Below are positions 4,949-8,381 of a stretch of DNA of 16,263 bases, one piece after another (position 1 is the first letter of the stretch; every line of letters starts with the position of its first letter). A program made the translations under genes and the position numbers. Source of the DNA: Collinsella aerofaciens (lineage in GTDB: Bacteria; Actinomycetota; Coriobacteriia; Coriobacteriales; Coriobacteriaceae); NCBI GenBank assembly GCA_008671285.1, contig RPYR01000212.1, positions 1 to 16,263 on the forward strand, in the 5' to 3' direction. The notes below the pieces were generated by a model. That model had not been told where the DNA came from. It saw nothing but the letters and a program-made list of their open reading frames with translations, and did not search any database.

Positions 4949-5263
4949 TTACGCCATATAATTAAAAAAAATACGCACGTCGAGCCGGAATTTAACCAGG
5001 TGCGACTGCTTGAGTGTGCGCAGCTGGTGCGACACCGCGGACTGCGAGGTTTCGGTCGCTTCGGCGATGTCTGCCACGCAGAGCTCGCGGCCCATGAGGG
5101 CATAGAGGATCTTGATGCGCGTGGTGTCGCTGAAGACCTTGAACAGGTCGGCGAGGTCGTAGAGAAGCTCCTCGTCGGGAAGGTCCTCGGGCGAGCAGGT
5201 GGTCGGGATCGCGGGTTCGGTGGCCTCGATGTCGAGTTTCGTTTCATCAACGCGGATGCTCAT
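4949..5263 (-). CDS. ArsR/SmtB-family metal-responsive repressor, truncated by an in-frame stop at the sensing helix
   Basis: The start ATG at 5263 follows GAAAGGA at good spacing. The 104 residues include the ArsR winged helix: VFSDTTRIKILYAL (43-56), the alpha3 metal motif ELCVADIAE (Cys62) and the recognition helix SQSAVSHQLRTLK (73-85). The reading then stops with TAA at 4951-4949. The same frame continues past it for 16 codons to TAG (4900-4898), reading YDFYTMLNQGMSHICE. This looks like the missing alpha5 helix of SmtB/CzrA, and full length would be 121 residues against about 122 for SmtB. The stop occupies the place of the Asp in the family motif D-x-H-x10-H-x2-E. The regulator may therefore be unable to sense zinc through alpha5, or may be a recent pseudogene. 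Confidence 0.85.
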   Translation of the reverse strand: MSIRVDETKLDIEATEPAIPTTCSPEDLPDEELLYDLADLFKVFSDTTRIKILYALMGRELCVADIAEATETSQSAVSHQLRTLKQSHLVKFRLDVRIFFNYMA

Positions 5264-5277
5264 TGCAATATCCTTTC

Positions 5278-5297
5278 ATATGAACATGCGCTCATAT
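5278..5297 (-). promoter_or_regulatory. ArsR/SmtB-type operator A, near the start of the regulator gene
   Basis: ATATGAACATGCGCTCATAT is an imperfect dyad whose outer six bases (ATATGA/TCATAT) are perfectly inverted. It resembles known SmtB/CzrA operators built on TGAACA...TGTTCA half-sites. It lies just upstream of the ribosome binding site of the ArsR-type gene, downstream of its promoter. Confidence 0.75.
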
Positions 5298-5309
5298 AAC
5301 TTGCTTTCG

Positions 5310-5337
5310 ATTATATGAGTGTATGTTCATATGTCAA
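5310..5337 (-). promoter_or_regulatory. Consensus promoter of the ArsR-type gene with operator B in its spacer
   Basis: On the minus strand TTGACA (5337-5332) and TATAAT (5315-5310) are both perfect sigma70-type boxes with a 16-nt spacer. A second dyad, ATATGAGTGTATGTTCATAT (5313-5332), fills the spacer and overlaps both boxes. It shares ATATGA/TCATAT ends with operator A. Repressor binding here would block RNA polymerase directly. The boxes and dyad are seen; the binding is inferred from the family. Confidence 0.8.
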
Positions 5338-5411
5338 TACAATTTGCGTTAATTTCGATGACTGCTTGCCGCCTCTGCGATTTTCTGTGGGTTGGGAGAC
5401 ATCGACGCAAT

Positions 5412-5635
5412 GCTCGCCAACATATTTCGAGATGTTCGGCTAGCATGCTAAGAAAGCCACCTTGAGAAGCATTAGAACTGTTCATATTTGTACTTTATCG
5501 TGTCAAATACCGCGAGAATCAGTTCTTCCTCTACGGGAGTTCCTGCAGAATCAGTTTTATCTAAAGTTATATTGAGCATTGCTGCAGCCAATCTGGCACA
5601 TCGGTGGCCGAATAAGTCGAAAAATGTAGGTGGAC
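5412..5635. repeat. Inverted-repeat element downstream of the AbiEi-like gene (repeat copies D and A)
   Basis: Copy D lies at 5412-5442 on the minus strand and copy A at 5605-5635 on the plus strand. They are inverted copies of a ~31-nt motif of the form RGCCGAAYAACTCGAAA followed by WATGTWGGYGRGC. Copy A matches copy B (7235-7265) at 28 of 31 positions; D matches B at about 26 of 32. The interior (5443-5604) is AT-richer than the neighbourhood and has no recognisable gene; a 66-codon minus-strand frame crosses it but starts outside and runs through copy A. Bases 5338-5411 show nothing else. This accounts for the gene-free stretch between 5338 and 5652. Confidence 0.75.
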
Positions 5636-5652
5636 ATCCGCAGAGATCGCCT

Positions 5653-6861
5653 TTAGAAGAGCGAATTCTCAATTAGATCAATAATCGTGTCGTCTTCCGT
5701 GCGGTTTTCATCGATTTTTGCGAACATGTCGCATTCCCAAGCCCCATTGATTTCCTCAGCAAGGGCCCCGACGTGTTGCATGTCGTCGGGTTCGGGCACA
5801 TCGTTGATGCTCGGGTCATCAGCTTGCGGATATTGGCTTGCAATTTCGCGCTTGGCGGCCTCTTCTTCTTTGAGTGTCTCCAGGACGCGGCGACCGTATT
5901 CGAAGTAGCGCCGCAAGACAAATTGACGAAGAGTTTCTTGCAGGATGGCGAAGTTATCCGGGAGTCGACCGGGCCATATCTTCTCGCGAATGCGAATCGC
6001 TTCCATGACCCGTTTAAAAGCGGACTGTTTGAAAAACGAATGACGATTAACTGTGATAACGGCATATCCCATGTTTCGCAGCGTGTTTCGGCGCTCCTCG
6101 TCAATTGATTGCTGCTCGGGTTCGTCGTGGTAAAAGCCGTTGTATTCGATATCGGTCATCGAATTTTCGAGCAGCGCGTCGAGGTAGAAAACCGTCCGTC
6201 GCGTTAGGGCGGCGTATCTTTTGGGGACTGGGATCGGATAATCCGTTTTGATAGCGCGTATGGCTAAGCCACCCATTGACTTGGGCATTGTCAGCATCAT
6301 GACAAACGCCGTTTCGAGTGGGGAGCGACAGCCTTCGTGTACATAAGAAAGTGCCTTAAGTGCTTTATTAGATCCACGATACCCCGGTGCCTCTGAAAAG
6401 AAGGCTCTGAGCTCTTCAACGCTGGTTAGGGCTGGGCGCTCGCGATATTGAGTTTCGTCGGACGTTCCAAGCGCGTAGGAGCCGCAGATTTCAAAGTAAT
6501 ACTCAACGAGCTCCGAAAGGTTGAGGTCGGCTGTTGCTTCTAACGCGCACAGCTTGATATCGACGATGTAGACGTTCGGCTTGAGTTCTAGGTAGCTTTC
6601 TGCATCAAACGTATAGTGCGTGCAGTGGCAGATGCAGCCCTTGCGGTGCCTTTTGGCATTATTGGAAAACGTCAGCACATGGATACGTTCAGAATCGACA
6701 TTCTTTCTGTTGAGCCATGCTCGTGCCGCTTCCAGGTCGGACGTGGTCGGCGCAGACACCCTGATCTTTTCCATAGGTATGGGACCGGTCGCGTAGCTTG
6801 CGAGCGAGTTGGCTGTTTGGTATACAGCGCGTGCCGTGGTATGTGACAGAATGATTCCCAT
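5653..6861 (-). CDS. AbiEi-like / DUF559-type protein (putative PD-(D/E)XK-fold, defence or toxin-antitoxin related)
   Basis: With the ATG at 6861 the product has 402 residues. The start is uncertain: the frame is open to an ATG at 7083, but that codon lies inside a repeat copy, and no candidate has a clear ribosome binding site. Family-like sequence begins at MGIILSHTTARAVY, as in AbiEi-type proteins. Next comes a Cys cluster GCICHC (76, 78, 80) and a helical middle with SPLETAF (180-186). The C-terminal part has the DUF559/Vsr-like pattern: Asp228, Glu239 in IEYNG, His245, Asp254, Arg257 and GYAVITV. The usual IExDG Asp is Asn241. The tail is acidic. Lower GC suggests transfer. No AbiEii-like nucleotidyltransferase toxin is adjacent. 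The assignment rests on pattern recognition and needs a profile search. Confidence 0.7.
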   Translation of the reverse strand: MGIILSHTTARAVYQTANSLASYATGPIPMEKIRVSAPTTSDLEAARAWLNRKNVDSERIHVLTFSNNAKRHRKGCICHCTHYTFDAESYLELKPNVYIVDIKLCALEATADLNLSELVEYYFEICGSYALGTSDETQYRERPALTSVEELRAFFSEAPGYRGSNKALKALSYVHEGCRSPLETAFVMMLTMPKSMGGLAIRAIKTDYPIPVPKRYAALTRRTVFYLDALLENSMTDIEYNGFYHDEPEQQSIDEERRNTLRNMGYAVITVNRHSFFKQSAFKRVMEAIRIREKIWPGRLPDNFAILQETLRQFVLRRYFEYGRRVLETLKEEEAAKREIASQYPQADDPSINDVPEPDDMQHVGALAEEINGAWECDMFAKIDENRTEDDTIIDLIENSLF

Positions 6862-7071
6862 ACGCGCATGATGGCATAGCGGACGCCGCATACGCCCGAA
6901 ACTTCGGGCAACGGTATTGGGGCGCGGCTTATCTTCTGCGAACGGTGGGTTTTTGAGCTGTCGTATTGAGGGAGCAGCTTTGGCTGGGGAGGTTTCTGCC
7001 GGCTGCCCCTTTTTGATGAACTTTAGTTGCGGATTCGTAGCTTCTAAGCGTTTTTGCCGACCGCTCAGATG

Positions 7072-7265
7072 CCTCACCAACATAATTTGAGTTATTCGGC
7101 CTTATCCTATACAAATAGGTGCGATCGCAACGTCCTATTCGAATTGATTCAGGTAGATTTATGGGGCTTGGTTGCGAAATTAAGGCGATTTTAGCTTCGA
7201 TTGCGGTTCAAGGGGCCTTGACTAGTGGTTCAGCTGGCCGAACAACTCGAAAAATGTAGGTGGGC
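7072..7265. repeat. Inverted-repeat element upstream of the AbiEi-like gene (repeat copies C and B)
   Basis: Copy C (7072-7101, minus strand) and copy B (7235-7265, plus strand) are inverted copies of the same ~31-nt motif found at 5412-5442 and 5605-5635. C and B agree at 22 of 27 core positions. The interior (7102-7234) is AT-rich and shows no gene. The whole 6862-7412 stretch otherwise holds only the open N-terminal extension of the AbiEi-like frame and the terminator near 7312-7347. A small dyad, CCCGAA/TTCGGG, lies at about 6896-6909. Confidence 0.7.
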
Positions 7266-7303
7266 CAACCTGCCGACTATGTGAAGCACGCGTATTTGCT
7301 CGT

Positions 7304-7347
7304 TTTGATGAAAACTAGGGTGCAGCCATAAGGCTGCGCCCTAGTTT
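7304..7347 (-). terminator. Rho-independent terminator of the exonuclease-like gene
   Basis: AAACTAGGGTGCAGCC (7312-7327) pairs with 7332-7347 over 16 bp with one G-U-type mismatch around the loop ATAA. On the minus strand the stem runs into TTTTCATCAAAA. It lies 66 nt downstream of the gene's stop. Confidence 0.9.
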
Positions 7348-7412
7348 ACTGCGTGTCGGTGTGCCCAGACGGATTGCGCTGTGCCTGGCAGGCGCTCCCG
7401 CAGATGGATCGG

Positions 7413-8381
7413 TTATTTCGCGAATAGGTTCTTGAGGTTGAACTCGGCTTGGACGGTGCGGAGCATGAGGTCGGTGTCGTCCAGGCCCAGATGCTGCTCG
7501 TTGGCGTCGGCGGCGAGGGTTCCACGGCGGCGCGCCCAGTTCTCGAGCGCGGCGGGGGCGGATTCGCGGGGGAGCGAGCGGACGTCGGCATCCAGGCTGC
7601 GGCAGATCTGGCGCGAGTCGATGACGATAATCTTGCCGGCACGACGCGCCTCGGCGTAACCGTCCAGGTGAATCTTGAACCAGCTGTCCTCAAACGCGGC
7701 GTTGTGTGCCATGTACGGGTACTTCTTCATGAGCTTGAGCAGCTGCTTCTGCAGCTCCTTGTTCTCGCGGAACGGCTCCTTTCCGTCGATGTCGTCCCAG
7801 GTGATGTGGTGGATATTCGACAACGGCACATCCTCGCCGCGGTAGATATCGGGCAGGCCGCAGTAGTGTGCCTCGGCGTCGTGCGGGACGGCGTCGCTGG
7901 TGAGCTCCATGATCTCCCAGCCCACGTTGATAATGTAGCCGCGCTCGGGCGCACGTCCGGTGGTCTCGATGTCGATGCCGAGCACCGTGCCCTGGATAGG
8001 CTTGCGGGCGTACGCCACGCCGAGCGCGTCGCGGTCGCCGCGGATTTCGCGCATGACGGACGCAGCGGTACGCTTTTGCATCTTGCCGATGGCGGCGCAG
8101 GTGTCGGCATCGGACAGGCCGCGCGAAAGCGTCGCGGGCGTCACGTTGCGCAGGCGTGCCTCGCCAATTTGGTCGCACAGGTCGCGGTTGCGGTCAGCCA
8201 GGTCGCGCACGGTGGCAAAGTCGAAGCTGGGGTCGCCCTCGGCGGTAAAGTACTCGGTTTCGAGCACATTAAGGGCCTCCTCGCCCTTCTGGCGCTCGGA
8301 CTCCATGGCGCCGTGATCGCCATAGATAAACATGGGAATAAACGGCTGGCGCTCGTATTCGAGTGCTTGTGAAACGTTCAT
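7413..8381 (-). CDS. DEDDh 3'-5' exonuclease-like protein (DnaQ/RNase T superfamily)
   Basis: The 322-residue product starts at the ATG at 8381 behind AAGGAG (8394-8389). Residues 133-312 form a DEDDh exonuclease domain: ExoI GIDIETTG (Asp137, Glu139), ExoII AHNAAFED (His227-Asp232) and ExoIII HLGLDD (His297, Asp302). Such enzymes trim DNA or RNA 3' ends using two metal ions. The ExoII aspartate expected right after HNAxF is Glu231 here, with Asp232 next to it, so activity is not certain. The first ~130 residues are a charged, helical region that I do not recognise. The gene stands alone, diverges from the exporter gene and has its own terminator. The substrate is unknown. Confidence 0.85.
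   Translation of the reverse strand: MNVSQALEYERQPFIPMFIYGDHGAMESERQKGEEALNVLETEYFTAEGDPSFDFATVRDLADRNRDLCDQIGEARLRNVTPATLSRGLSDADTCAAIGKMQKRTAASVMREIRGDRDALGVAYARKPIQGTVLGIDIETTGRAPERGYIINVGWEIMELTSDAVPHDAEAHYCGLPDIYRGEDVPLSNIHHITWDDIDGKEPFRENKELQKQLLKLMKKYPYMAHNAAFEDSWFKIHLDGYAEARRAGKIIVIDSRQICRSLDADVRSLPRESAPAALENWARRRGTLAADANEQHLGLDDTDLMLRTVQAEFNLKNLFAK

Follow-up and report, generated by a model that had tools for sequence, protein, structure and literature searches.

Pairs of inverted repeat arms around a long, variable loop were found beside genes for putative nucleases with a Vsr/DUF559-like fold, in Collinsella and in other genera of the order Coriobacteriales, and the association of the pairs with this gene family is strong and general. 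The pairs recur with one architecture, with arm sequences specific to their genes, conserved arm cores and interiors of set length classes, and they form an insertion hot spot for an IS. The window, a stretch of 16,263 nt from Collinsella aerofaciens, holds one gene of the family between two such pairs, E1 and E2. At a little short of even chances, we read E1 and E2 as hairpin-forming elements cognate to this gene, in a partnership like that of REPINs and RAYTs, with a nuclease-like protein in place of the Y1 transposase; this suggests that a nuclease and repeated DNA are partners in a way that is not known to have been described.

The initial annotation had reported four copies of one motif forming an inverted pair on each side of a single gene, and all four lie at the positions and on the strands it gave. 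Element E1 (5412..5635), on the 3' side of the gene, is made of arm A (5412..5442, minus strand) and arm B (5605..5635, plus strand), the latter ending 18 nt past the stop codon; element E2 (7072..7265), on the 5' side, is made of arm C (7072..7101, minus strand) and arm D (7235..7265, plus strand). A degenerate 26-mer, allowed up to 3 mismatches, matches the window at exactly these four copies, and there were 0 matches in 200 dinucleotide shuffles of the window. Each pair joins one TTGG-type arm (A, C) to one TAGG-type arm (B, D); the identity of 28/31 over 1.6 kb once assigned to A and B in fact belongs to B (5605) and D (7235), which are 1.63 kb apart. The interiors of E1 and E2 are unlike, and their start-to-start spacings by the 26-mer are 192 and 162 nt, respectively. 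Folded as single-stranded DNA, E1 is no better than many shuffles (z -1.30), while E2 reaches z -2.72. An Rfam search of the window gave no match. The lower GC noticed around the gene is real, at 0.43-0.54 in 500-base windows across 5251-7500 vs mostly 0.55-0.68 elsewhere.

The open frame of the gene reaches 7083, but we take the gene to be 5653..6861 (minus strand), probably encoding 402 rather than 476 aa, because many close homologues are 402 aa long and start at residue 75 of the listed frame, and because the preceding stretch (6862-7083) carries frameshifts in 3 of the 6 relatives that were compared; codon-position bias is also absent there. With this start, arm C lies ~210 bp upstream of the coding sequence. 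The C-terminal domain (residues about 178-296) is Vsr/DUF559-like, and the acidic residues E183, D228, E239 and D254 are invariant; the protein agrees with Vsr/DUF559-like nucleases in both fold and conserved acidic residues and is, going by its model, a putative nuclease. Pfam DUF559 scores above cut-off in 3 of 10 relatives and below it in the window protein; family matches were to DUF559/MTES_1575 and to Vsr-like folds, with no Y1 match listed among them. The N-terminal part has a weak fold match to residues 67-195 of AbiEi, which are its C-terminal domain and not its DNA-binding N-terminus. Of the earlier label "AbiEi/DUF559-like", the second half is thus upheld, weakly by sequence and better by fold, and the first shrinks to this weak match. 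A Foldseek search with the complete model found nothing at E<=0.001, PADLOC gave 0 matches for four family members, and NCBIfam gave nothing meaningful for five. No AbiEii nucleotidyltransferase toxin gene adjoins; the neighbors are one gene for an ArsR-family regulator and one for a 322-aa protein lacking a Pfam match.

These neighbors border a site that varies among strains. On the left is the ArsR-family regulator gene (4949..5263, minus strand), directly upstream of which two 23-nt arms, 91% complementary and 11 nt apart (5277-5333), look like an operator of that gene. On the right is the 322-aa gene (7413..8381, minus strand), which had no Pfam match at E 0.001 and which, judging by its DIETTG-type motif, may be exonuclease-like. 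The nearest named relatives are C. aerofaciens and its kin. Among 43 genus genomes the window motif is present in 12 (reversed-pattern control, 0/43), where 47 arms were listed and read as 24 inverted pairs; the count is 47 and not 48 because one arm of the HAD-locus pair in G019 exceeds 3 mismatches. The expected recurrence of the motif beside such genes was borne out, with the four-copy locus and the window gene occurring in the same 10 of the 43 genomes. Ten other genomes carry at this site a 46-49% identical allele (allele II), adjoining the same flanking gene; both flanks were seen in nine, and the tenth (G010) is cut by a contig end. Nine of these ten alleles have an inverted pair of another sequence past the stop. 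Three strains have no gene there (L059-L061), and their intergenic DNA matches what lies to the left and to the right of the L055 allele, the two parts meeting at a 9-nt repeat common to both, with half an allele-II arm left. We favour deletion from allele II as the origin of these gene-less sites, as their sequences suggest; insertion with a 9-bp duplication is a possible alternative.

An empty site retaining one pair had been predicted. None of the strains compared has a single E pair at the window locus; pair-only sites do exist elsewhere. Of 20 strains examined, 3 carry a window-family pair close to a HAD-family gene, two of the three lacking the window gene, and a further pair, with 33-nt arms, was found in G011 (L062). 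The strain-specific block at the HAD locus is ~330 bp and is not a clean insertion. Near the HAD-locus pair (L001, about 1020-1130) is a short hydrophobic frame (MTDLIDFVRLL...), picked out by eye, that may resemble the Fst-type small toxins.

To measure the association more broadly, 60 loci were fetched from genus genomes, of which 53 held a family gene, and these fell into 39 groups at 80% identity. Pairs were called at a score of at least 16, with a loop of 40-250 and at most 400 bp from the gene. A long-loop pair accompanies 19 of the 39 Collinsella groups vs 22 of 204 background ORFs (p = 2.6e-7), the background being ORFs of at least 250 aa in 400 kb of G003. The pair is on the 3' side in 18 of the 19, mostly directly past the stop. 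The other 20 groups have no pair at this threshold, including the window's own, which counts as a miss through its weaker arms (14.5 for E2). The same score rule, applied to other genera of the order, found a pair at 16 of 18 loci, these being the best matches of 18 genomes and not a random sample of the family; by our reading, with distances measured from the ends of the profile match, 11 of these pairs are upstream of the match and 5 downstream. DUF559-like matches occur in 68 of 90 genomes of the order, with up to 14 in one genome. Two other kinds of repeat were seen along the way: at L073, short-repeat arrays (TGTCAGTGCTGAGT...) stand on both sides of a family gene (946-1199 and 2737-2977) instead of one pair, and a second palindromic repeat, GTGACAAAGGGGCTGTCCCTTTGTCAC, occurs in Collinsella intergenic DNA (L063, L064, L106, L126), where no link to the nuclease family was seen.

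One arm family has spread beyond its gene. The element past the gene of L088/L105 has arms that contain CAAATATGAGTACTG, and this arm family is dispersed in 21 of 43 genomes at 11-22 arms each (reversed control, 0), making it the largest family seen. The cognate gene, at 88% identity or more, is present in 19 of these 21 genomes and in 0 of the 22 others (best 37%), although all 21 belong to one clade and the co-occurrence is therefore confounded by descent. The two exceptions are G003, which keeps the elements without the gene, and the draft G033, which has a gene fragment. G021 is close by its exonuclease-like gene (98%), yet has neither the cognate gene nor the elements. At six orthologue loci of 32-37% identity (L269-L274), diverged arms lie on the 3' side in L269 and L273, a pair on the 5' side in L270, and weak 3' pairs in L272 and L274; L271 has none. 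One site of a dispersed element is old and is inherited in many strains. At the L128 site in G001, G002, G012 and G024, the sequences that flank a dispersed element on its left and on its right are ~4.7 kb apart, and a right half-arm is left in the junctions of G001, G002 and G024. The cognate gene is adjoined by a raiA RNA (L105 878-1138; RF03072, 147.9 bits).

The arm core is near-invariant: over 20 distinct sites, positions 0..14 match in 294 of 300 cases, whereas the interiors vary between elements but keep length classes. Once a 1,514-nt IS was removed where present, start-to-start spacing was 170/171 at 7 and 180-182 at 13 of the 20 distinct sites, into which the elements are loosely grouped. 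Among 57 pairs tabulated by hand from nine genomes, 25 are spaced 170-171, 31 are spaced 180-182, and one 162; at one orthologous site a 10-nt interior gap in 2 of 12 strains amounts to the shorter class. A difference of roughly one turn of the helix between classes points to two sites bound by protein on the same duplex; founder effects could contribute to the classes.

The evidence for pairing between arms is mixed. Positions -12/-11 match within sites in 34 of 40 cases vs 21.3±2.45 expected (0 of 20,000 permutations), and across the whole arm co-variation between sites is significant only there, with a weak signal at -26..-17 (p 0.02). The gene-linked element, in 16 strains (14 distinct), has 23 double-changed cells vs 11.0±2.4 (0 of 500 shuffles), while the number of pairs with double changes is unremarkable (6 vs 4.6; 89 of 500 shuffles); few events may lie behind these changes. 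The interior hairpin at one site appears by eye to co-vary. Two other ideas were set aside. A shared arm word CA[AT]3+ was counted in 20 of 38 vs 8.3 in shuffles, but is not used because it is also present on the control strand (15) and reversed (11). For an invertible promoter, arms and interior hold their orientation relative to the flanks, by eye, at L142/L148/L154 and at L147/L156/L164.

Inside E2, G002 has a 1.5-kb insert whose product is a Mutator-family transposase (PF00872), and we call the element IS256-like. It has 26 full-length copies in G001, G002 and G024, of which 25 (L166-L195) were examined as loci; it was also noted at 1285-2619 of L046. Sixteen of the 25 lie inside an inverted pair vs 13 of 400 random intergenic points (p = 2.6e-15), these control points coming from G003 and not from the three IS-holding genomes; with two shared insertions counted once, the figure is 14 of 23 (p = 2.3e-13). 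The occupied pairs belong to several arm families, and 6 of the 16 are weak (scores 13-16.5). The pairs thus mark a strong insertion hot spot for an IS that belongs to a common species of the human gut.

How might such elements and genes work together? Each nuclease-like family member tends to have its own private arm sequence, in two inverted copies around a fast-changing interior. The protein may recognise the arms, either when they are extruded into a hairpin or as a phased pair of sites within a single duplex, and would then nick or cut at them, and repair after the cut would maintain the elements and occasionally copy them. We infer, then, that recognition and cutting are both the work of the protein, and that the elements spread by its action. 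This partnership is favoured by the pairs at 19/39 groups and 16/18 other-genera loci, by the co-occurrence of 19/21 vs 0/22, by the near-invariant arm cores around unlike interiors, the two spacing classes and the correlated arm changes, by six Y1 loci that lack such pairs and the pairs of G025 in the absence of a Y1_Tnp match, and by the putative nuclease fold with its invariant acidic residues. Against it stand the 20/39 groups lacking a pair, the descent that confounds the co-occurrence, the elements of G003 without a gene, the HAD-locus block that is no clean insertion, the old, inherited site, the ordinary fold of E1 and the limited co-variation of the arms. Of the three ideas in the initial annotation (a mobile cassette, a platform for swapping genes and a recognition site for the nuclease-like protein), the last fits best as a candidate, with pairs beside family genes throughout the order and arms specific to their genes.

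The elements could instead work as structured RNA, with long-stem hairpins carried by transcripts or small RNAs that the protein binds or cleaves, their spread being old and incidental. The correlated arm changes, the interior hairpin that seems to co-vary and the position of Collinsella pairs directly past stops all agree with this, but Rfam searches of 20 loci found only tRNA, raiA and sub-threshold matches, none read as the elements, the pairs of other genera are mostly upstream, and spacing steps of a DNA turn with unlike interiors better fit duplex DNA; we consider RNA unlikely, if a serious contender. An operator role is improbable. Here an AbiEi-like part would autoregulate through the inverted repeats, with the dispersed pairs as a regulon, and E2 is indeed upstream of the window gene; the promoters of AbiEi and Rv2827c contain 23-bp inverted repeats to which these proteins themselves bind (PMC7319586). 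The known operators have gaps of 3 or 13 bp, however, vs about 100-170 here, the Collinsella pairs are 3' in 18/19 groups, the fold match misses the DNA-binding part of AbiEi, and some dispersed pairs lie between convergent genes (L128, L142).

Perhaps another enzyme, a Y1 or an IS256-like transposase, moves the elements and the gene is a passenger. Y1_Tnp matches are found in 23 of 24 genomes searched, and the IS256-like element is often inside the loops. Yet these pairs are absent from six Y1 loci, two of which show only single 4-mismatch matches to an allele-II arm; the one genome without a Y1_Tnp match, G025, has pairs at two family genes; G003 has dispersed elements but no full IS copy; and gene-specific arms would be left unexplained, all of which makes a foreign mobiliser quite improbable. 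We think it very improbable that the pairs are ends or homology arms of a cassette or recombination platform exchanging defence-type genes. The occupancy of one site by the window gene, by an allele with other arms or by no gene recommends the idea, but the arms of the two alleles differ and so could not provide homology common to both. An exchange of genes by way of the repeats is also unsupported because the gene-less sites, with their half arm at the 9-nt repeat, look like deletions, and single-pair strains are lacking at the window locus among those compared.

If the partnership with the nuclease-like protein is correct, many unexplained DUF559-like genes of gut Actinobacteria gain a testable substrate, namely their own neighboring hairpin. 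A bolder version, possible but more doubtful than the partnership itself, is that these are selfish or domesticated hairpin elements propagated by Vsr-like nucleases throughout the Coriobacteriales, a second, HUH-independent invention of the REPIN-RAYT partnership in which each nuclease would co-evolve with a private hairpin, and the helically phased sites would give a bent or extruded loop that attracts the IS.

Any novelty is provisional because our literature search covered open-licence papers only, among which no paper brings DUF559 together with "inverted repeats". The arrangement of two same-orientation elements around one gene led us to consider integron attC sites, whose R-box consensus does not fit by eye. 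The close structures of the protein are the homing endonuclease I-Bth0305I (3r3p), Vsr (1vsr, 1cw0) and the DUF559-type 3hrl. AbiEi offers a precedent for arm recognition, in another layout; unlike the AbiEi/Rv2827c antitoxins (6y8q, 1zel), the window protein has only a weak fold match, to the C-terminal domain of AbiEi, its gene has ArsR-like and exonuclease-like neighbors, and the pairs of Collinsella are mostly 3'. As insertion hot spots the pairs recall the REPs, which are IS targets according to Tobes and Pareja 2006 (PMC1525189), but here the IS sits in the loops of pairs with several unrelated arm sequences.

The closest likeness is to REPIN-RAYT systems. As described by Bertels and Rainey 2011 (PMC3116915), a REPIN has inverted conserved ends, a poorly conserved spacer of preferred lengths, in which length and the capacity to form a hairpin are what counts, compensatory changes and a linked gene. 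The present elements share the conserved inverted ends around a variable spacer with length classes, the predicted hairpin, the compensatory changes, the linkage to a cognate gene and the dispersed copies. They differ in their longer arms (about 26-50 nt), in a dispersal seen for a single arm family plus a few pairs of a second, and in far fewer copies, 11-22 arms per genome for the largest family, where REPs usually exceed 100 per genome (PMC2817692). The linked protein is not a Y1 (HUH) transposase, and because of this, of the six Y1 loci without pairs and of the G025 pairs without Y1, the window system is not a member of REPIN-RAYT. Should our reading be right, the enzyme to which REPIN-like repeats are linked need not be related to the HUH transposases.
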